In this document: positions 8,714 to 16,870 of the stretch, in pieces
Position numbering within the stretch: position 1 is the stretch's first letter
Layout of the letters: every line of letters begins with the position of its first letter
Origin: Paraburkholderia sp. ZP32-5
Lineage (GTDB): Bacteria; Pseudomonadota; Gammaproteobacteria; Burkholderiales; Burkholderiaceae
NCBI RefSeq assembly: GCF_021390495.1
Contig: NZ_JAJEJP010000002.1
Coordinates: forward strand, 620,001-684,000
Direction of reading: 5' to 3'
Length of the DNA stretch: 64,000 bases
Program-made: the position numbers and the translations under genes
The notes under the pieces: generated by a model
The model's input: only the letters and a program-made list of their open reading frames with translations
Database searches by the model: none
What the model was told of the DNA's origin: nothing

Positions 8714-10513
8714 TTAGCCGGCTTTGCGAACCGGCGCAAAGCGCCGTTTTCCAAGCGACGGCCCGATGCGCCGGAAGCGCTCACGCTTGTGCTCTTCCTC
8801 GAAGTGCGCAAGCGACGGCTTGACCAGATCGCTGCGCGACACGATGCCGACCAGATGCATGCTCTTGCGGTCGGCCACTACCGGCAGACGTTCGAGGCCA
8901 AGTACCGCGAGCCGCGTTGCGACGAGCCGGCAGGTTTCGGATGGCAATGCAAAAGCAGGGTTCTGCTGCGCGAATACGTCGGCGAGCGTCATCGCGCGCT
9001 TGTGTTGCGCGTCGTCGGCGCAGAACTGTTCGAGCAGCGCGCGATCGGCCACGCCGATCACCGCGCCGTCGCGCACGACAGGGTAGGCGCGACGCAGCTG
9101 GTTTGCACCGAACAGCGTTTGCAGCGTGTCGCCGACCGTCTTGCCGGAGTCGATCGATTCGACCGATGCGGTCATCACTTCATCGACATAGTGACGCTCC
9201 AGCGGATCGACGCCGTACTCGCGATAGATGTGATAGCCGCGGCGCGCGATCTTCTCGGTCATGATCGAACGGCGCATCACCACCGTCGAGAAGCCGTGCG
9301 CGATCAGCGTGGCGGTCAATAGCGGCAGCAAGGCATTGCTGTCGTGTGTCAGGCCGAAGGCGAACACGATGGCGGTGAGTGGCGCGCCGAGCGTCGCACC
9401 GAGTGTCGCGGCCATGCAGACGAGCGGCCACAACGCCGGTTCGCTGCCAGGCAACCAGTGCGCGAGCACGGTGCCGAGGCCGGCGCCGAGCATCAGCAGC
9501 GGCGCGAGCACGCCGCCCGAGGTGCCGGAGCCGAGCGCGATGACCCACATCACGGCCTTCACCGCGAGCAGCAGCAGCGCGACTTGCACCGCAATGTGCT
9601 GATGCAGCAGATCGCCAATTACGTCATAGCCGACACCGAGCGCGCGCGGTTCGAGCCATCCGCCGATCCCGACGACGATGCCGCCGAGCGCCGGCCACCA
9701 CATCCAGTGGATCGGCAGTTTGCCGAACAGGTCTTCGACTTTATAGAGCGCGGCGGACAGGCCCGATGCGAGCGCGCCCGACAGCACGCCGGCAATCGCG
9801 CAGGAAACCAGCGACCAGCCGTCCGGCGCGGCGGTTTGCAGCGGAAACAGCGGACCGGTACCGAAGAAAAGCGCGCGCGCGAAACCGGCGACCGCGCAGG
9901 CGATCGCGACCGGCAGGAAACTGCGCGGGCGCCATTCGAACAGCAGCAGTTCGACGGCGAGCAGCACGGCCGCCACCGGCGTGCCGAACACCGCGGTCAT
10001 GCCCGCGGCGGCGCCGGCGACGAGCAGCGTCTTGCGTTCCGCCGAGGTGACCTTCACGCACTGCGCAATCAGCGAGCCGAGAGCACCGCCGGTCATGATG
10101 ATCGGGCCTTCGGCGCCGAACGGTCCGCCGCTGCCGATCACGATGCCCGACGACAGCGGTTTGAGCACGGCGACCTTCGGCGACATCTTGCTCTTGCCGA
10201 ACAGGATCGCCTCGATCGCTTCAGGAATGCCATGGCCGCGGATTTTCTCGGAGCCGAAACGCGCCATCATCCCGACGATCAGCCCGCCGATCACCGGCAC
10301 GCCGATCACCCACAGCCCGAGCGTATTGGTGGCAGGCGAGCGTTCGACGAACGACAACGTGCCGAAGAAAAACAGATTGGTGAACAGCCGGATCAGGTTC
10401 AGCAAGACGAAAGCGGCAAGCGTGCTGATCAAACCGATACATGCAGCCAGCGCGAAAATGCCGGGCAGCCGCGCGTTGGCCGAAAAGTCGCGCTTGTGGG
10501 AATCCATACTCAT
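8714..10513 (-). CDS. ClC chloride channel/antiporter with CBS pair (first copy)
   Basis: The 599-residue protein has the ClC membrane domain (about residues 15-420) with GSGGPFGAEGPI, which holds the gating glutamate, and GSGTSGGVLAPLLM. Two cytoplasmic CBS domains follow (about 460-590) and may sense nucleotides. Such proteins move Cl- or other anions, often coupled to protons. The ATG at 10513 lies two bases after the stop of the marR gene, so translation is probably coupled; no good SD is seen. It is closely related to the second ClC gene at 13648. Confidence 0.92.
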   Translation of the reverse strand: MSMDSHKRDFSANARLPGIFALAACIGLISTLAAFVLLNLIRLFTNLFFFGTLSFVERSPATNTLGLWVIGVPVIGGLIVGMMARFGSEKIRGHGIPEAIEAILFGKSKMSPKVAVLKPLSSGIVIGSGGPFGAEGPIIMTGGALGSLIAQCVKVTSAERKTLLVAGAAAGMTAVFGTPVAAVLLAVELLLFEWRPRSFLPVAIACAVAGFARALFFGTGPLFPLQTAAPDGWSLVSCAIAGVLSGALASGLSAALYKVEDLFGKLPIHWMWWPALGGIVVGIGGWLEPRALGVGYDVIGDLLHQHIAVQVALLLLAVKAVMWVIALGSGTSGGVLAPLLMLGAGLGTVLAHWLPGSEPALWPLVCMAATLGATLGAPLTAIVFAFGLTHDSNALLPLLTATLIAHGFSTVVMRRSIMTEKIARRGYHIYREYGVDPLERHYVDEVMTASVESIDSGKTVGDTLQTLFGANQLRRAYPVVRDGAVIGVADRALLEQFCADDAQHKRAMTLADVFAQQNPAFALPSETCRLVATRLAVLGLERLPVVADRKSMHLVGIVSRSDLVKPSLAHFEEEHKRERFRRIGPSLGKRRFAPVRKAG

Positions 10514-10515
10514 GG

Positions 10516-10947
10516 TTATTCGAAGTCGATCTGTGGAATCTGAAAGGAACCTTCGAGCGATTTCAGCTCCGCGCGGTGCAACTCCGCGAGCCGCTCGAGT
10601 ACTCGTTCGCCTGCTTTTTCGAGGTGAACCTCGACCTGCCGGCGGTCGGTTTCGCTGATCTGCCGGCGCACGAGATTCAGCGCCTCGCAGCGCGACACCA
10701 ACGCAACGACGCCGTGATGCTGCGCCTGAAGCCGCTCGGCCAGTTCGCCGACGGTTGCCCAATCGCGCTCCGGGTAACCTTTGATATGCAGCAGCAACAG
10801 GTATTGCAGCGGCGTAATGCCTTCGTTTTGCGCGGCCTGTTCAGAAAACCGCTCGAAACGCCGCATCTGATAGCGAAACTCCGACAGCTGCTCGAAGTCG
10901 CGCTTGTTCAGTCCGCGAGTCCGTACTTTCATTGGATGTCCCGCCAT
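10516..10947 (-). CDS. MarR-family transcriptional regulator
   Basis: This 143-residue protein has a MarR winged helix fold (LQYLLLLHIKGYP; ATVGELAERLQAQHHGVVALVSRCEALNLVRR; the wing ISETDRRQVEVHL). Two starts are possible: ATG 10947 or ATG 10932, the second preceded by GGCGGGA. It forms an operon with the ClC gene. A dyad of the TCA-N5-TGA type lies just upstream at about 10965-10984, so autoregulation is likely. The same dyad occurs at four more places in the island, making this protein the best candidate regulator. Confidence 0.9.
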   Translation of the reverse strand: MAGHPMKVRTRGLNKRDFEQLSEFRYQMRRFERFSEQAAQNEGITPLQYLLLLHIKGYPERDWATVGELAERLQAQHHGVVALVSRCEALNLVRRQISETDRRQVEVHLEKAGERVLERLAELHRAELKSLEGSFQIPQIDFE

Positions 10948-10962
10948 GTGAGGAAATCCAAA

Positions 10963-10986
10963 AATGTATCACATAATGATGTATAT
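10963..10986. promoter_or_regulatory. island dyad site A (upstream of marR-clc)
   Basis: TGTATCA, CATAA, TGATGTATA: half sites TCA (10969-10971) and TGA (10977-10979) are 5 bases apart with AT-rich flanks. It lies 20-40 bases before the MarR start. It matches sites at 12415-12440, 13564-13590, 15498-15520 and 16666-16690. Confidence 0.55.
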
Positions 10987-11100
10987 GCGGAATCTCTTTC
11001 GGTGCGCTCGCTTTAGCGTTGGTGTTTAGCGTTTAGCGGCGCGGCCTGCTTCGCGTGATGCTTTCGGTCTGCTTTCGCGGCGTGTTTCGCTTTCGCGAAA

Positions 11101-12306
11101 TCACGCTATCCGGCGGGCTGTCGCGACGGTTTGCCGGTAAAGGCCGGCGATCAGATCCGCCTGCGTGATCATGCCGACTACCCGCTCCGCGTTGTCGAGT
11201 ACCGGTACGTGGTGGTGGCCGAAGTTCGCGAACATCGGCACGAGTTCGGTAATCGGCTCGGTCGCCTTGACGCAGCAAACTTCGGTGGTCATCACGTTGC
11301 CGATGTTTATTGTGCGAAGCGTGTCGCCGCGCAGCCAGCCGTCGAGGTAACGGATGATCGGCCCGAGGGGCCCAAAACTTCTCTTGTCGACGAAATCGAC
11401 GCGCGTGACGATGCCGACCAGCTTCTGGCCGGCGTCGACCACCGGCAGCGCCTTCACCTTGTTGCGCTTGAACAGGGCCCACGCGATGCTGGCGCGCGTA
11501 GTCGCCGATACCGACACGACATGGCGCGACATGATGTCTTCGCAGCGCAGTTCGTCGAAGCTGCGCGAAAACGCCTGCAACTGCGTTTCGCGCAACAGCG
11601 AATAGAGGTCGTCGGGATCGATGGGGAGCAGTTCATCGCGGCGGCCGAGCACGGCTTTCACATCGGCGCGCGTGAAGCCGACGCGCGACGCTTCGTCGGC
11701 GGCCTGGCTGGCGGTGGCGCGATCCTGTCCGCCCACGTGCGGATAGCGATGGCCAGTGGCCGCGTGATAGAGGAGCGCCGCGAGCAGCAGCGCGGCCGAC
11801 TGGATCGCGATGGGTTCGAGCACGAACCGATAGCCGAGCGCATGAATGACGGGGCCGCCGAGCACCGCGGTCAACGCCACCGCTCCCGACGGCGGGTGTA
11901 CGCAGCGCAGCGCGAACATCCCGCCAATCGACAGCGCAACCGCCGACGCGGCGGCAAGAGTCGGATCGCCGATCAACAGCGCGCAGGTTACGCCGATCGT
12001 CGAGGACACCAGATTACCGCCGATGATCGACCACGGTTGCGCGAGCGGACTCGCGGGCACCGCAAATAGCAGCACGGCGGACGCGCCCATCGGCGCGACC
12101 AGCAGCGGAATATTCGCGCTGGGCCCAAGCAGCAGGTACATGAGCCCGCCGGTGAACGCGATACCGAGCAGTGCGCCGACACATGAACGCGCACGCTCGT
12201 GCCATTTCACGGCGACCGGTGCGGGCAGGAAACTGGAAAGCCAGCCAAGAACGAGGGTACGGGACAAGATGAGTGCGGAAGTAGTCGATTGTGCCGGGGC
12301 CGACAT
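11101..12306 (-). CDS. HPP-family membrane protein with C-terminal CBS pair
   Basis: The 401-residue protein begins with an HPP domain of four to five helices (about residues 35-185) containing the hallmark HPPSGAVALTAVLGG. Two CBS domains follow (about 245-390; DIMSRHVVSVSATTRA and NVMTTEVCCVKATE). HPP proteins are linked to nitrite or anion transport in plants and cyanobacteria; the bacterial CBS fusions are little studied. It lies upstream of marR-clc on the same strand and is divergent from the DUF1840 gene. Confidence 0.9.
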   Translation of the reverse strand: MSAPAQSTTSALILSRTLVLGWLSSFLPAPVAVKWHERARSCVGALLGIAFTGGLMYLLLGPSANIPLLVAPMGASAVLLFAVPASPLAQPWSIIGGNLVSSTIGVTCALLIGDPTLAAASAVALSIGGMFALRCVHPPSGAVALTAVLGGPVIHALGYRFVLEPIAIQSAALLLAALLYHAATGHRYPHVGGQDRATASQAADEASRVGFTRADVKAVLGRRDELLPIDPDDLYSLLRETQLQAFSRSFDELRCEDIMSRHVVSVSATTRASIAWALFKRNKVKALPVVDAGQKLVGIVTRVDFVDKRSFGPLGPIIRYLDGWLRGDTLRTINIGNVMTTEVCCVKATEPITELVPMFANFGHHHVPVLDNAERVVGMITQADLIAGLYRQTVATARRIA

Positions 12307-12414
12307 TACCGGGGAAACCCTGGCAACGCGAATACAGTGTGGTCATGATTATATTTCAATATGATATAAAACCGCGCTTTCGCATGATGCGCTGCGGAAG
12401 AATGGGCCGTTGGG

Positions 12415-12440
12415 CTCTCTTATCATGTTGTGATATAAAA
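12415..12440. promoter_or_regulatory. island dyad site D (HPP / DUF1840 divergent region)
   Basis: TTATCA, TGTTG, TGATATAAA: half sites TCA (12423-12425) and TGA (12431-12433) have the same 5-base spacing as the other island sites, with perfect TATCA/TGATA arms. It lies about 75 bases before the DUF1840 start and 120 before the HPP start, so it could serve both. Confidence 0.55.
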
Positions 12441-12502
12441 TATCGACAAGGGGCGACACAAGCTGCATTCGGTTTGTTTCGTACATCGATAAAGGAGCCA
12501 TC

Positions 12503-12820
12503 ATGATGATCACTTTTCAATCGACGGCGTCACCGGATGTCGTGATGCTCAGAGACCTCGCTCAATATCTGCTGGGACTGATCGGCAAGCGGCTCGGCGA
12601 ACGCGGCGTCATTACGCACGATGAACTCCCGCACGCAATCGATCGCCTCGAAGCGGCGATCACCGATGACGCGACCGTGGAAGCCACCGCGGAAGCGTTG
12701 CATTGTTCGCCCGGCAATCATCGCGAGTCGCATAACCGGCTTTCGCAACGCGCATGGCCGTTTCTCGACATGATGCGCGCGGCGCGCGAACGCGATGTGG
12801 ACATCATCTGGGGACTTTGA
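12503..12820 (+). CDS. DUF1840 domain protein (first copy)
   Basis: The 105-residue protein matches DUF1840: ITFQSTASPDVVMLRDLAQY at the start, KRLGERGVITHDELPHAI in the middle, and LSQRAWPFLDMMRAA at the end. The function is unknown. A GGAG site lies 5 bases before the ATG. A paralogue of nearly the same length lies at 16155-16475. Dyad site D is upstream. Confidence 0.88.
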   Translation: MMITFQSTASPDVVMLRDLAQYLLGLIGKRLGERGVITHDELPHAIDRLEAAITDDATVEATAEALHCSPGNHRESHNRLSQRAWPFLDMMRAARERDVDIIWGL

Positions 12821-12903
12821 ACCTATTGCGCAGGGCTTTTTTATCCGCCCGGTCCGGTTTGCGTGACGGCAATGAAGCCAACGTAGCCGATAAAGGATCG
12901 ACG

Positions 12904-13275
12904 ATGAAACGACGTTCATCGCGGCGACGTTACGCTGTCGCGCTCGCGGCGGCTTGCGTTGTTCCCGCAGCGTACGCGTGCGAACCCGCGCGCTTCAGCG
13001 GCCGATACGAACGACCGGCAGGCGCGCATGATCAATGGACGCGTTTTGCAGCGGGCGGCTCCAGGCTGGCCACCGAATATTCCGCTGGTGTTCCGATCAC
13101 CGTGATCGGCAGCTACGGCGGCACCGTGCTCGATCTTCTATCCGATGGCAACGTGGTGCTCGTGAAATGGCCGGAAGATTCGCCGCACGAAAAATGGCGC
13201 GGGCAATGGCACAGCACACCCGTCAATTCCGAAGCAGACGGGGCTCATATTTTCTTTCTCTGGCCCGACTCATAG
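12904..13275 (+). CDS. hypothetical secreted protein
   Basis: The 123-residue product has a basic N-terminus (MKRRSSRRR) and a signal peptide ending near AAYACEPARF. The first mature residues contain a Cys. The mature part has no family I recognise; it includes FSGRYERPAGAHDQW and VLVKWPEDSPHEKWRG, and may be a small beta-rich periplasmic protein. AAGGA lies 7 bases before the ATG. It is 83 bases after the DUF1840 gene on the same strand and may be co-transcribed with it. Confidence 0.7.
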   Translation: MKRRSSRRRYAVALAAACVVPAAYACEPARFSGRYERPAGAHDQWTRFAAGGSRLATEYSAGVPITVIGSYGGTVLDLLSDGNVVLVKWPEDSPHEKWRGQWHSTPVNSEADGAHIFFLWPDS

Positions 13276-13300
13276 CGCCACCTCGCCGCGACCCGCCAAC

Positions 13301-13486
13301 TCAGGTAAACAGCGGCACCGCTTCAATCAACGCAAATCCGAGCAGCGCGCCCAGTGTTGCCCCCACTAGCCGGGGATGCAACCGCTGGAGGTGGAGTCTG
13401 TCGAGCAGTCCGCCGATCAGAATGATGCCGAGAAACGCAAAGGCAAACACCAGGTAGCTGATTTCGAAGTCGTTGTTGATGACCAT
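13301..13486 (-). CDS. small two-helix membrane protein
   Basis: The 61-residue product has two hydrophobic helices (about 10-28 and 40-58) joined by a basic loop (LLDRLHLQRLHPR). GGGAGG stands 6 bases before the ATG, so it is likely real. It is divergent from the second ClC gene, with a dyad site between them. No family was recognised. Confidence 0.7.
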   Translation of the reverse strand: MVINNDFEISYLVFAFAFLGIILIGGLLDRLHLQRLHPRLVGATLGALLGFALIEAVPLFT

Positions 13487-13563
13487 CGGGCACCTCCCGT
13501 GCGTAGTGCAATACGAACACGCAATCGCGCGTGCTGGCTTGTTACGTCGATTGCTTACCGGTT

Positions 13564-13590
13564 AGTATATATCACAGCGTGATCTATATC
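13564..13590. promoter_or_regulatory. island dyad site B (best copy)
   Basis: ATCAC (13571-13575), AGC, GTGAT (13579-13583) form a perfect core. The outer TATA on each side (13566-13569 and 13585-13588) also pairs, giving 9 of 10 matched positions. It lies between the small membrane protein gene and the second ClC gene, 60-85 bases from each start. Confidence 0.65.
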
Positions 13591-13647
13591 GAGCAATAGC
13601 AACGGCGAGCAGATCGAGGCTTTTCATCCCGAGAACGAGGAGCGGCA

Positions 13648-15435
13648 GTGCAGATGAATGAGTCAAAAGGCGATTTCGCCACCGATACCCGGCTTCTGCG
13701 AATCACGGTCATTGCCGCTGTCGTCGGCATGCTGAGCACGTTTGCCGCCGAGTTCCTGCTGCATCTGATTCGCCTGTTTACCAATCTGTTCTTCTTTCAG
13801 ACGCTCTCGATCGCGAATAACTCGCCCGCCGGCAACACGCTGGGGCTTTGGGTAATCGCGATGCCCGTCGTGGGCGGTCTGATCGTCGGCTTTATCGCGC
13901 GCTACGGTTCGGAGCAGATTCGCGGCCACGGTATCCCGGAGGCGATCGAGGCCATCCTGTTCGGCAAGAGCAAGATGTCGCCGAAAGTGGCCGTGCTGAA
14001 ACCGCTGGCCTCGGCGGTCGCGATCGGCAGCGGCGGACCGTTCGGCGCGGAAGGGCCGATCATCATGACGGGCGGCGCGCTCGGTTCGTTGATCGCGCAG
14101 TTCTTCCATCTGTCGAGCGGCGAGCGCAAGACGTTGCTGGTGGCCGGCGCGGTCGCCGGCATGACCGCGGTATTCGGCACGCCGGTGGCCGCCGTGCTGC
14201 TCGCGGTGGAGTTGCTGCTGTTCGAATTGAGGCCACGCAGCCTGCTGCCTGCCGCGGTTTCGTGCGCGGTGGCGGGCTTTTTACGACCGCTGCTGATGGG
14301 CAGCGGCCCGCTTTTTCCACTGCAGACGCTGCCGCTCGGCGCGCTCGGACTCGCTTCGTGCGCGCTCGCGGGGCTGATTGCCGGCGCGCTGTCGTGGGGA
14401 TTGTCGACGTGGCTCTATAAGGTCGAAGATGCCTTCGCACGGTTGCCGTTTCACTGGATGTGGTGGCCCGCGCTCGGCGGTCTCGCGGTCGGAATCGGCG
14501 GCTATTTTCAGCCCCGCACACTGGGCGTCGGCTATGACGTGATCGGCGATCTGCTGATGAATCACCTGGCCGTCGGTGTCGTGCTGGCGATCGTGCTGGT
14601 CAAGGCGGTGATCTGGGTGATCGCGCTGGGCTCGGGCACGTCGGGCGGCGTGCTTGCACCGTTGCTGATGATGGGCGCGGGCGTCGGCGCGCTGCTGGGT
14701 CCGGCGATGCCTGGCGGCGACCCCGCGATCTGGCCGTTGATCTTTATGGCGGCGTCGCTCGGCGGCATGATGCGTGCGCCGATCATGGCCGTCGTGTTCG
14801 CGTTCGAACTGACGCACGACGCGAATGCATTGCTGCCGCTGCTGACCGCCGCGGCGGTTTCGTACGGCTTTACCGTCGTCTTTATGCGCCGCTCGATTCT
14901 GACCGAGAAGATTGCGCGACGCGGCTACCACATCTACCGCGAGTACGGGATCGATCCGCTCGAACGTCATCACGTGAATGAGGTCATGACGCGTACCGTC
15001 AAGACGATCGATGCCGATCTTGGCGTCGCCGACGCGCTCGCGCAGCACTTTGGCCCGAGCCAGGCGCATCGCGCGTATCCGGTGGTGCGGGCGGGCCGCC
15101 TCGTCGGCATGGCGGATCGGCAGCGGCTTGCCGATGCGCTCGAAAATGGCCAGGCGACACTAGCGGTTGGCGATCTGTACGCCAATGAGCGGCTCGAAAT
15201 CGCGCTGCCGGATGAGACCTGCCGGCATGTCGCCGCGCGTCTTGCCGCGCGTTCGCTGGATCGCGTGCCGGTGGTGGCCGACGAATCCGCTTATCAACTG
15301 GTCGGCATCGTGTCGCGGCACGATCTCGTCAAGCCGTCGTTGTCCATTTTCAACGAGGAGCGCCAGCGCGAGCGGTTCCGTCATATCTCGCTGCTTCATG
15401 GACGCGAGTCGGCTACCGCCGAGCACCACGAATAG
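13648..15435 (+). CDS. ClC chloride channel/antiporter with CBS pair (second copy)
   Basis: This 595-residue ClC protein is a close paralogue of the first, sharing exact stretches such as GKSKMSPKVAVLKPL. The gating motif GSGGPFGAEGPI and the GSGTSGGVLAPLLMMGAG motif are present, followed by two CBS domains (about 445-580). The GTG at 13648 has GGAG five bases upstream, better than the ATG at 13654. It is followed by the Usp gene on the same strand. Confidence 0.92.
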   Translation: MQMNESKGDFATDTRLLRITVIAAVVGMLSTFAAEFLLHLIRLFTNLFFFQTLSIANNSPAGNTLGLWVIAMPVVGGLIVGFIARYGSEQIRGHGIPEAIEAILFGKSKMSPKVAVLKPLASAVAIGSGGPFGAEGPIIMTGGALGSLIAQFFHLSSGERKTLLVAGAVAGMTAVFGTPVAAVLLAVELLLFELRPRSLLPAAVSCAVAGFLRPLLMGSGPLFPLQTLPLGALGLASCALAGLIAGALSWGLSTWLYKVEDAFARLPFHWMWWPALGGLAVGIGGYFQPRTLGVGYDVIGDLLMNHLAVGVVLAIVLVKAVIWVIALGSGTSGGVLAPLLMMGAGVGALLGPAMPGGDPAIWPLIFMAASLGGMMRAPIMAVVFAFELTHDANALLPLLTAAAVSYGFTVVFMRRSILTEKIARRGYHIYREYGIDPLERHHVNEVMTRTVKTIDADLGVADALAQHFGPSQAHRAYPVVRAGRLVGMADRQRLADALENGQATLAVGDLYANERLEIALPDETCRHVAARLAARSLDRVPVVADESAYQLVGIVSRHDLVKPSLSIFNEERQRERFRHISLLHGRESATAEHHE

Positions 15436-15497
15436 TGCCTGCCTGGTGGAGCTTCGAGAGATTCTTTATGTACTTGCGTGGCATTTTCGTCCGGCCG

Positions 15498-15520
15498 TAT
15501 GTATCAAGGATTGACATATA
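15498..15520. promoter_or_regulatory. island dyad site F (upstream of usp)
   Basis: TATGTATCA, AGGAT, TGACATATA: TCA (15504-15506) and TGA (15512-15514) keep the 5-base spacing, and the outer TAT/ATA also pair. The centre is about 57 bases before the Usp start. Confidence 0.55.
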
Positions 15521-15565
15521 CTGAATTGATGATGTGCCCGCGAAGACGGTGCAGGGAGACATGAT

Positions 15566-16081
15566 ATGTCGTGCTTTAATCGCATTCTTCTCTGTTATGA
15601 CGGAACGCGTGAAGGACAGCACGCGTTGAAAGACGGCGCCGTTCTCGCGCAGGATCTCAACGCGGAAGTCCATCTGCTTTCCGTGCTCAACAATTCCGCC
15701 TGGATGCAGGGCGCCGACATCACCTCCGCGGTGCCGATGGATTTCATCAACGAGTCCGCCAAAAGTCTGCTCGACGAAGGATTGCAAAAGCTCGCCGCGA
15801 GGGGAATTCGCGCGGTGGGGCACCTCGCGATCGGCGAGCCGCTGGATCAGATTCCGTTCTTTGCCAAAGAGCTGAATGTCGATCTCGTCGTGGTGGGGCA
15901 TCGTCGCGCTCATGGACTCGCACGCTGGTGGGGCGGTCGCAACGATGGTCTGCTGCTGGACAGGGTGACGTGTAGCGTGCTCGTGACGATGGGCGCGGTG
16001 GCCGATGCACCGGTGGCGGCCGCGGGTGCCGCGGGTGCAACAGGTACCGGCGAGACCGAGCGGTCCGCCGAGCATTCGTAA
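15566..16081 (+). CDS. universal stress protein (UspA family)
   Basis: The 171-residue protein has a Usp fold (NRILLCYDGTREGQHALKDG at the start; DLVVVGHRRAHGLARWWGG near the end). The canonical ATP loop G-x2-G-x9-G-S/T is altered (GHRRAHG and no clear GS), so ATP binding is uncertain. A short Ala/Gly tail ends the protein. GGGAG stands upstream of the ATG. A dyad site precedes it, linking it to the ClC island. Confidence 0.88.
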   Translation: MSCFNRILLCYDGTREGQHALKDGAVLAQDLNAEVHLLSVLNNSAWMQGADITSAVPMDFINESAKSLLDEGLQKLAARGIRAVGHLAIGEPLDQIPFFAKELNVDLVVVGHRRAHGLARWWGGRNDGLLLDRVTCSVLVTMGAVADAPVAAAGAAGATGTGETERSAEHS

Positions 16082-16154
16082 TGCCTTGCACTAGCGTTGC
16101 ATTAATGCGCTAGTGCGTTCGAAAGCGTTCGTGCGCAGCGGCTATCTTCCCGTG

Positions 16155-16475
16155 CTAAATCGCCCAGCTAATGTCCGCTTGACGCAGCTCGGCTTCGCGC
16201 ATCATGTCGAGAAGCGGCCGGGCGCGTTGCGCGAGTCCGCTGCCGCGTTCACGCGATGCAGCCTGAGCGATGCAGTTCAGCGCGTCTTCCGCGATTTCTG
16301 CTTTTTCTTCGTTGGAAATGGCCTGCTCGATCCGGCTGATCGCGAGCGGCAGCTTGTCGTGCTGGATCACGCCGCGCTTGTCGAGGCGTTTGCCAAGCAG
16401 GCCCAGCAGATACTGCGCGAGTTCCGTCAACAACTGCACGTCGGCTGTGGCGGCCGACTGAAACGTGACCGGCAT
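16155..16475 (-). CDS. DUF1840 domain protein (second copy)
   Basis: The 106-residue protein is a paralogue of the first DUF1840 protein (VTFQSAATADVQLLTELAQY; GKRLDKRGVIQHDKLPLAI; RARPLLDMMREAE). ATG 16475 is chosen because GAGGAG lies 5 bases before it; a longer frame reaches 16514. It is divergent from a 45-residue gene. The function is unknown. Confidence 0.88.
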   Translation of the reverse strand: MPVTFQSAATADVQLLTELAQYLLGLLGKRLDKRGVIQHDKLPLAISRIEQAISNEEKAEIAEDALNCIAQAASRERGSGLAQRARPLLDMMREAELRQADISWAI

Positions 16476-16665
16476 GACTGCTCCTCGAAATTGTCCGCGC
16501 CATGCGGCCACCATGACCCGGGCAAGGCCTTACGCGTGACGGACTATTCCGCTGCGAAGCTGGACGCGGTCGACTTGGGGGCGCGCGTGATCCACGTGAG
16601 CCATTCCTGTACTCAGCCGCGGACTGCTCCGCGCACGGTACTCCGCCACGTGAAGGCTCTTTTCC

Positions 16666-16690
16666 ATAGTATGTCATAGCGTGATATGTT
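16666..16690. promoter_or_regulatory. island dyad site C
   Basis: TATGTCA, TAGCG, TGATATGTT: TCA (16674-16676) and TGA (16682-16684) with 5-base spacing. It shares the AGCGTGAT block with site B. It lies about 54 bases before the small gene at 16733 and about 200 before the divergent DUF1840 gene. Confidence 0.5.
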
Positions 16691-16732
16691 CAAGCGCAGC
16701 GCTTGATCGGCTGCATGACATGGAGGCACACC

Positions 16733-16870
16733 ATGGTAGACGTCGATGAGCAATTCAAGCATCCCCAGCCCGTGAAGCACAGCGACAACGAAAAGAGCAA
16801 GCTGCCGCAGCGCGAAGACGATCAGCAGAAGCCGAGGAAGAAACCGGAGGGCGAGCCGCCGGTTGAATGA
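16733..16870 (+). CDS. small highly charged hydrophilic protein (45 aa)
   Basis: The 45-residue product (MVDVDEQFKHPQPVKHSDNE, then a Lys/Gln/Glu/Pro-rich tail) has a clear GGAGG site six bases before the ATG. Dyad site C lies upstream. It has no Cys, no hydrophobic segment and is probably disordered. No family was recognised. Confidence 0.65.
   Translation: MVDVDEQFKHPQPVKHSDNEKSKLPQREDDQQKPRKKPEGEPPVE

Follow-up and report, generated by a model that had tools for sequence, protein, structure and literature searches.

Why should several intergenic regions within one short gene island carry the same AT-rich dyad, and which protein reads it? This question is raised by a locus of the soil bacterium Paraburkholderia sp. 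ZP32-5 in which a gene for a MarR-family regulator (10516-10947) lies among genes for ClC-type anion transporters, an HPP membrane protein, a universal stress protein (Usp) and DUF1840 proteins. The window, by which we mean the whole stretch of DNA that was analysed, has 64,000 nt and corresponds to positions 620001-684000 of contig C2 in a genome (G000) of 9.09 Mb and four contigs. An earlier note on this window had pointed out five dyads of the form TCA-N5-TGA and had proposed that the MarR protein controls them all. By computation we located the sites, found that they are concentrated in the island, and established that relatives keep them at the same genes and that they co-occur with the MarR gene. 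These results support the proposal, and we consider it very likely that the island holds an autoregulated MarR repressor with a local anion-channel and stress regulon. The kind of system is ordinary and well known, and this member of it appears to be new.

All five dyads of the earlier note are present, at positions that were right to within 2 bases. TCA-N5-TGA occurs ten times in the window, and the five named copies are precisely those with AT-rich flanks (11-14 A or T among the 18 flanking bases vs 4-8 in the other five). The count of five was nonetheless incomplete, for a sixth, degenerate copy lies before the HPP gene. In this copy the left TCA is replaced by TTT, hence it is not a TCA-N5-TGA, and TGA and both AT arms are kept; relatives have the same or a fuller form at this position. 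The six sites are given below without strand, with scores from a matrix trained solely on the marR promoters of 76 relatives.

10962-10986: Dyad 1, AAATGTATCACATAATGATGTATAT, proposed operator of marR-clc, 37.5 bits
12347-12371: Dyad 2, GATTATATTTCAATATGATATAAAA, degenerate left half, proposed operator of HPP, 23.5 bits
12416-12440: Dyad 3, TCTCTTATCATGTTGTGATATAAAA, proposed operator of the first DUF1840 gene, 18.8 bits
13565-13589: Dyad 4, GTATATATCACAGCGTGATCTATAT, proposed operator common to the divergent 61-residue gene and clc-2, 29.6 bits
15497-15521: Dyad 5, GTATGTATCAAGGATTGACATATAC, proposed operator of usp, 14.4 bits, the weakest
16667-16691: Dyad 6, TAGTATGTCATAGCGTGATATGTTC, between the second DUF1840 gene and the 45-residue gene, 20.1 bits

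With this relatives-only matrix, exactly these six island sites were found and no other position in the 64 kb reached 8 bits. When a matrix was built from any five of the dyads, the sixth ranked top among the window positions outside the training set. A Markov model of the island's intergenic DNA (858 bp) predicts approximately 0.009 sites by chance, compared with the six observed. The copy at 13564 had been called nearly perfect, which is fair (9 of 12 arm pairs at 13565-13589), but symmetry is just as high at 15497-15521 (9 of 12), and the remaining four dyads have 6-7 of the 12 pairs. The earlier note had also considered that similar matches might be frequent elsewhere without relation to the regulator. 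A scan of the 9.09 Mb with TATRTCAYNNNRTGAYATA gave six places with two mismatches or fewer, five of which are in the island.

To learn how far the dyad is conserved, we used 80 named relatives' loci from Paraburkholderia, Caballeronia, Burkholderia and Trinickia, which were collected by MarR similarity (the best 80 of 457, a few species giving two loci). In 76 of these 80, marR had a dyad no more than 250 bp upstream (matrix from the window's six sites, at least 15 bits). This is the opposite of the lack of conservation that would have spoken against the proposal, and the circuit is kept well beyond the window's island. Mean information per column was 1.43 bits in the dyad vs 0.11 in the 50 columns to its left and 0.27 in the 25 columns to its right. 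Sites of at least 14 bits numbered 230 in 1.507 Mb of relatives' loci vs 8 in the reversed sequence. The spacer is fixed: TATCA-N5-TGATA occurred 87 times and no other spacer of 2-9 more than twice (loci L046-L165, a count that holds duplicates since L046-L085 and L086-L165 have some genomes in common). Among the four loci with no dyad at marR, three (L132, L133 and L136) have one before a co-directional HPP gene that precedes marR (12.5, 19.6 and 15.6 bits, approximately 70-210 bp before HPP), and the fourth (L141) has no dyad in 20 kb. In a further 40 relatives' loci, a site of at least 17 bits lay within 250 bp of marR in 32. Among 27 loci fetched from other families of the order, 22 also had the dyad before marR (30 loci were fetched in all, of 46 matches), and the five misses are all five loci of one family, f37. 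In five loci from other families (L265, L266, L267, L271 and L272), marR is preceded by two overlapping dyads offset by 16 bp, an arrangement that suggests two dimers on one operator.

The dyads precede every proposed transcription unit of the island, and two of them are common to divergent genes. The genes lie in the following order.

8714-10513, minus strand: clc-1, ClC-type anion transporter, an open reading frame with its start read from the sequence
10516-10947, minus strand: marR, MarR-family regulator, 143 residues as called, Pfam MarR_2 (E 4.9e-14, 52.7 bits against a cut-off of 27)
11101-12306, minus strand: HPP membrane protein with CBS domains (HPP-CBS), Pfam TM_HPP (E 3.1e-48) and CBS (E 5.9e-25)
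12503-12820, plus strand: DUF1840 protein, first copy, Pfam DUF1840 (E 4.9e-28)
12904-13275, plus strand: 123-residue protein downstream of the first DUF1840 gene, N terminus resembling a signal peptide by eye
13301-13486, minus strand: 61-residue protein, a membrane protein as judged by eye, conserved and familyless
13648-15435, plus strand: clc-2, ClC-type anion transporter with CBS domains, Pfam Voltage_CLC (E 3.8e-75) and CBS (E 2.8e-15), ClC chain in the PDB (E 3.2e-22)
15566-16081, plus strand: usp, universal stress protein, Pfam Usp (E 1.9e-19)
16155-16514, minus strand: DUF1840 protein, second copy, Pfam DUF1840 (E 2.2e-22)
16733-16870, plus strand: 45-residue hydrophilic protein (KHSDNEKSKLPQR...KKPEGEPPVE), conserved in relatives (at least nine distinct copies)

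The ATG of clc-1 lies 2 nt after the marR stop, and we propose that the two genes form one operon, marR-clc; in 32 of 40 relatives' loci, a ClC homologue follows marR on the same strand at a distance of less than 300 bp. None of the 123-, 61- and 45-residue proteins matched a Pfam or NCBIfam family. The 123-residue gene has no dyad of its own, with a site within 300 bp upstream in none of 12 distinct copies.

The same genes carry the dyad in relatives. Across the 80 loci centred on marR, a dyad stood no more than 300 bp upstream of 75 of 79 HPP copies, all 30 DUF1840 copies and all nine copies of the 61-residue gene. When motif-fetched loci were included, which biases the counts, the figures were 25 of 25 for the 61-residue gene, 40 of 44 for DUF1840, 34 of 47 for Usp and 4 of 9 for the 45-residue gene. 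A search with the 61-residue protein gave 62 matches in 48 of 150 family genomes; in the 30 loci fetched of these 62, the dyad lay just upstream in 21, the window's included, and the nine copies without it are those of 56-62% identity. This membrane protein is a probable conserved member of the regulon that belongs to no family. Target copies away from marR also bear the dyad, among them HPP/ClC pairs in genus g3 and 61-residue genes on other contigs.

We also compared the presence of the motif with that of the MarR gene. Homologues of MarR (E 1e-15 or better) occurred in 102 of 150 family genomes and in 42 of 200 genomes of the order. By a strict motif match, 91 of the 150 family genomes had motif and MarR, 11 MarR alone, 11 the motif alone and 37 neither (Fisher p 9e-16, a value not corrected for kinship or genome size). 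Strict matches numbered 190 vs 3 in the control for MarR-positive genomes, and 12 vs 16 for MarR-negative ones. Small genomes make up most of the latter: 41 of the 48 MarR-negative genomes, and 10 of the 11 with the motif alone, are below 3 Mb, and one of the seven MarR-negative genomes of at least 3 Mb has a match. Five of the 11 genomes with MarR alone were searched again with a looser pattern. This gave a site of 16-31 bits in three (G009, G061 and G081), two sites beside marR and HPP in a fourth (G128), and no site in the single locus of the fifth (G053).

The regulator itself is a MarR-type winged helix-turn-helix protein, as seen from the Pfam match, the order of helices and strands in a structural model (a winged helix with a mean predicted local distance difference test score, pLDDT, of 86.8) and the best PDB matches, which are MarR-type regulators. 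It reached none of the NCBIfam MarR subfamilies HpaR, OhrR, BilQ, LdtR and Saro_0803 (best scores of 22-32 bits vs cut-offs of 121-250). Translation probably starts at the ATG at 10932, giving 138 residues, rather than at 10947; GGCGGG lies upstream of the former and relatives' alignments begin at query residues 2-13, as judged by eye. In the model no helix follows residue 131, and the last helix of the dimer interface may therefore be short. Within the predicted recognition helix (residues 77-89), H78, A82, L83, R86, C87 and E88 were invariant in 14 diverse homologues. Cys87 is present in 151 of 152 distinct homologues and is the only cysteine of most of them, other cysteines in the aligned part occurring in at most ten of the 152 at any one position. 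Thiol sensing is suggested by this near invariance and by the place of the residue in the predicted recognition helix, and because of Cys87 thiol chemistry is our leading guess for the signal. Such chemistry is described for other MarR proteins in the part of PMC11211675 available to us.

In the circuit that we propose, a MarR dimer would bind each TATATCAC-N3-GTGATATA-like palindrome near the promoters; a dimer on a palindromic operator of approximately 16-20 bp is typical of the family. It would repress its own operon, marR-clc, as predicted from the palindrome at the marR promoter in most relatives as well as at the targets, and also the other units of the island, namely HPP-CBS, DUF1840 with the small secreted-like protein, the 61-residue protein, ClC-2, Usp, the second DUF1840 and the 45-residue protein. 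A signal sensed by MarR, perhaps modification or oxidation of the Cys87 thiol, would release all units together, and the output might be to protect the cell from anion, acid or respiratory stress by means of ClC and HPP transport together with Usp. Binding by this MarR, dimerisation, repression rather than activation and the signal are what we infer. The half-site form TGATATAAT, found in many relatives, seems to resemble an extended -10 element, and therefore binding of MarR could block the promoter.

Activation, or a dual role, of MarR at the dyads would be the closest alternative to simple repression, and we regard it as unlikely. Distances from site to gene start do vary: Dyad 1 ends approximately 15 bp before the annotated marR start and approximately 30 bp before the ATG at 10932, and the gap is approximately 40 bp at HPP and 150-190 bp at the second DUF1840 gene, so that some sites could precede the promoter. 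In relatives, however, the end of the dyad lies 11-27 bp (median 15 bp) ahead of the first codon of marR in the window's numbering, and the likeness of TGATATAAT to an extended -10 element also argues for repression. MarR proteins are moreover described as repressors in the available part of PMC11211675.

Slightly less probable again is that a different regulator, of the CRP/FNR low-oxygen type or resembling the Lrp-like protein of genus g3, reads the dyads and that MarR is just another of its targets. Usp genes and genes of acetate metabolism or respiration are classic low-oxygen targets, and in relatives Acs/SatP, HiPIP/SLAC1 and SdhB-like genes follow some of the distal dyads. The low-oxygen-activated lxa locus of Burkholderia cenocepacia, in which Usp genes cluster with metabolic genes, recalls some of these distal targets. 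Usp genes of B. cenocepacia are among the genes that change when oxygen is low, and the involvement of an FNR-type protein is suspected (PMC3759415, PMC6127331, both in part). These papers differ from our reading in naming a CRP/FNR protein, and in the portions of their text available to us "marr" occurs in neither, "motif" and "tatatca" do not occur in PMC3759415, and "binding site" does not occur in PMC6127331; a link of the dyads to the lxa locus was set aside on this text. Against a different regulator, the sites run with the MarR gene across families whose neighbouring genes differ. We looked for FNR and CRP boxes of the generally known form between 10900 and 16750. TTGAT-N4-ATCAA had two matches at two mismatches and none at fewer, one of them (13579) overlapping Dyad 4, and TGTGA-N6-TCACA had one at two mismatches and none at fewer; an FNR- or CRP-type regulon was set aside on this result.

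A reading of the dyads as chance palindromes of AT-rich DNA, or as copies of a dispersed repeat, with no regulatory meaning is scarcely credible, for although they lie in AT-rich intergenic DNA of a GC-rich genome where lax patterns come near the control (TATRTCAYNNNRTGAYATA at three mismatches, 45 vs 38 and about control level; a second scan, 61 vs 41), their spacing is fixed, their conservation is mostly confined to the dyad, strong sites far outnumber those in reversed sequence, and they stand at the same genes in many genera. In the own genome, the strongest matches are local to the island and the weaker ones off the island are indistinguishable from chance. From the reversed control (8 per 1.507 Mb), approximately 48 places of at least 14 bits would be expected by chance in 9.09 Mb. 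A wider own-genome regulon was set aside, as the off-island one-mismatch places of the second scan, C2:1245707 and C3:724254, and likewise the place C2:254409, scored below 14 bits (L203-L205).

Several results weigh against the proposed circuit. The usp site is weak (14.4 bits), and Usp had a dyad upstream in only 27 of 39 copies in the marR-centred loci. For ClC the count was 5 of 77, which is low because ClC mostly follows marR. In eight of the further 40 relatives' loci no dyad closer than 250 bp to marR reached 17 bits, 11 of the 102 MarR-positive genomes had no strict motif match, and G147, a genome in which no MarR was detected, carries two sites (21 and 24 bits). A consensus promoter scan of the island region gave no more matches than the shuffled background (1 found, 2.2 expected); the sole match spans Dyad 4, and the scan was uninformative. 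Two of 22 scored off-island places exceeded the usp site (C1:270653 with 19.0 bits and C1:130765 with 16.2), with others at 13.0 (C1:99048), 12.1 (C1:340368) and the rest below 12 bits (loci L004-L015 and L249-L256); these scores cover the subset of pattern-match places with 3-kb loci. Lastly, in genus g3 neither of the two scored loci (L060 and L263) had a dyad at the MarR gene itself, and a gene judged by eye to be Lrp/AsnC-like lies near several dyad-bearing HPP/ClC genes, so in this genus another regulator could act.

C1:270653, the best of the scored off-island places (L008, 1498-1522), lies between a gene that by eye resembles a chemotaxis receptor gene and another gene, and may be a real extra target or chance. 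In seven g3 loci (L166, L169, L194, L196, L197, L198 and L201), dyads of 25-40 bits stand at HPP or divergent HPP/ClC genes. Wherever the MarR gene could be placed, they are distant from it, and several have the Lrp/AsnC-like gene nearby.

A MarR repressor of this kind can be compared with several known systems. Escherichia coli MarR and other autoregulated MarR repressors share with it the MarR-type winged helix, a conserved palindrome at the own promoter and a cysteine in the DNA-binding part. In E. coli MarR, Cys80 lies near the end of the recognition helix. A role of Cys80 is described in the part of PMC11211675 available to us. The window's protein differs from E. coli MarR in its operator sequence and its targets (ClC, HPP, Usp and DUF1840), and is approximately 20% identical to PDB entries 3vod and 3voe. 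Four Burkholderia MarR proteins, MftR, BifR, OhrR and TctR, are listed as characterised in the accessible part of PMC10458429, in which "chloride" gave no match. BifR of Burkholderia thailandensis is alike in being a MarR-family protein of the same bacterial family with a redox-sensitive cysteine (PMC10458429, PMC11211675, both in part). It differs in being reported for biofilm control, a comparison made by description only, so that the window's MarR could be BifR. MftR of B. thailandensis has the MarR fold, and PDB entry 8ylg matches our model over 101 columns at 16% identity; it differs in being responsive to urate and is given as an example of a cysteine-free MarR protein in the available part of PMC11211675. 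A full-text literature search found no description of the present regulon, and one could exist in PMC6383443, a review of Burkholderia MarR proteins, or in PMC5565208, on BifR. DUF1840 occurred in a single paper of the literature searched, which concerns prophages of a fish pathogen.

At the place of GSGIPE in E. coli ClcA, the ClC proteins read GHGIPEA, with a histidine for the filter serine of ClcA. Among the fetched loci, 119 of the 120 different GxGIPEA matches were GHGIPEA. In ClC-2 a leucine aligns with the second glutamate of the EE pair of E. coli ClcA. We take such a ClC, with a histidine in the filter and this leucine, possibly to have another anion selectivity or no proton coupling. 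A broader and rather doubtful idea is that an old, order-wide MarR switch works by thiol sensing, with oxidation or persulfidation of the one nearly invariant cysteine in the recognition helix opening a regulon whose core is the unusual His-filter ClC, HPP-CBS and the 61-residue protein. It would move an anion other than chloride, or do so with no proton coupling, with acetate and respiratory genes as lineage-specific additions.

If MarR does control the island, a regulator and a first functional handle would be assigned to several uncharacterised families. A specific operator, regulator and target list would then be available for genes for which we found no known role, namely those for DUF1840, HPP-CBS, the 61-residue protein and the His-filter ClC. 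Such genes occur in many Burkholderiales of soil, plants and patients. Conservation of the operator would let the regulon be read off many genomes, and the signal, if found, would tell what these channels are for.

Away from marR, dyads in relatives precede genes for HPP/ClC (in g3), a lone ClC, Acs/SatP, SLAC1/HiPIP, SdhB-like proteins, AdhP, DUF1275 and others. These distal targets, which also include nitronate monooxygenase, DUF3857 and several flavoprotein genes, were named with a crude gene caller and by eye, and some were checked against Pfam. A dyad lies before SatP/Acs in G040 and in G136 and before Acs in G034, and in G055 an acetate kinase gene lies approximately 0.4 kb on. Acetate as a core theme was set aside. 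Among 12 SatP loci from 100 genomes, two had a dyad (the query's own and acs-satP of G034): loci of 3.5 kb, too short to cover the region before acs, gave one of 12, and up to 10 kb around the other 11 added G034. The SatP gene of the window's own genome has no dyad. The acetate targets are a lineage-specific addition and are rare; therefore the regulon core is the island's own gene set.

Strong dyads lie upstream of an SdhB-like iron-sulfur protein gene in six loci (L173, L181, L182, L183, L232 and L240, of which L232 was checked against Pfam), and four of these have a divergent gene resembling a flavoprotein reductase. Two other loci, with genes named mostly by eye, look like larger stress islands. 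In L189 (16237-19825), a 54% identical MarR with its own dyad is followed by TPP-enzyme-like and enolase-like genes. L185 (3338-12088) has marR, 61-residue, CysK-like, DUF1840 and TPP-enzyme genes with four dyads, none of them right before marR.

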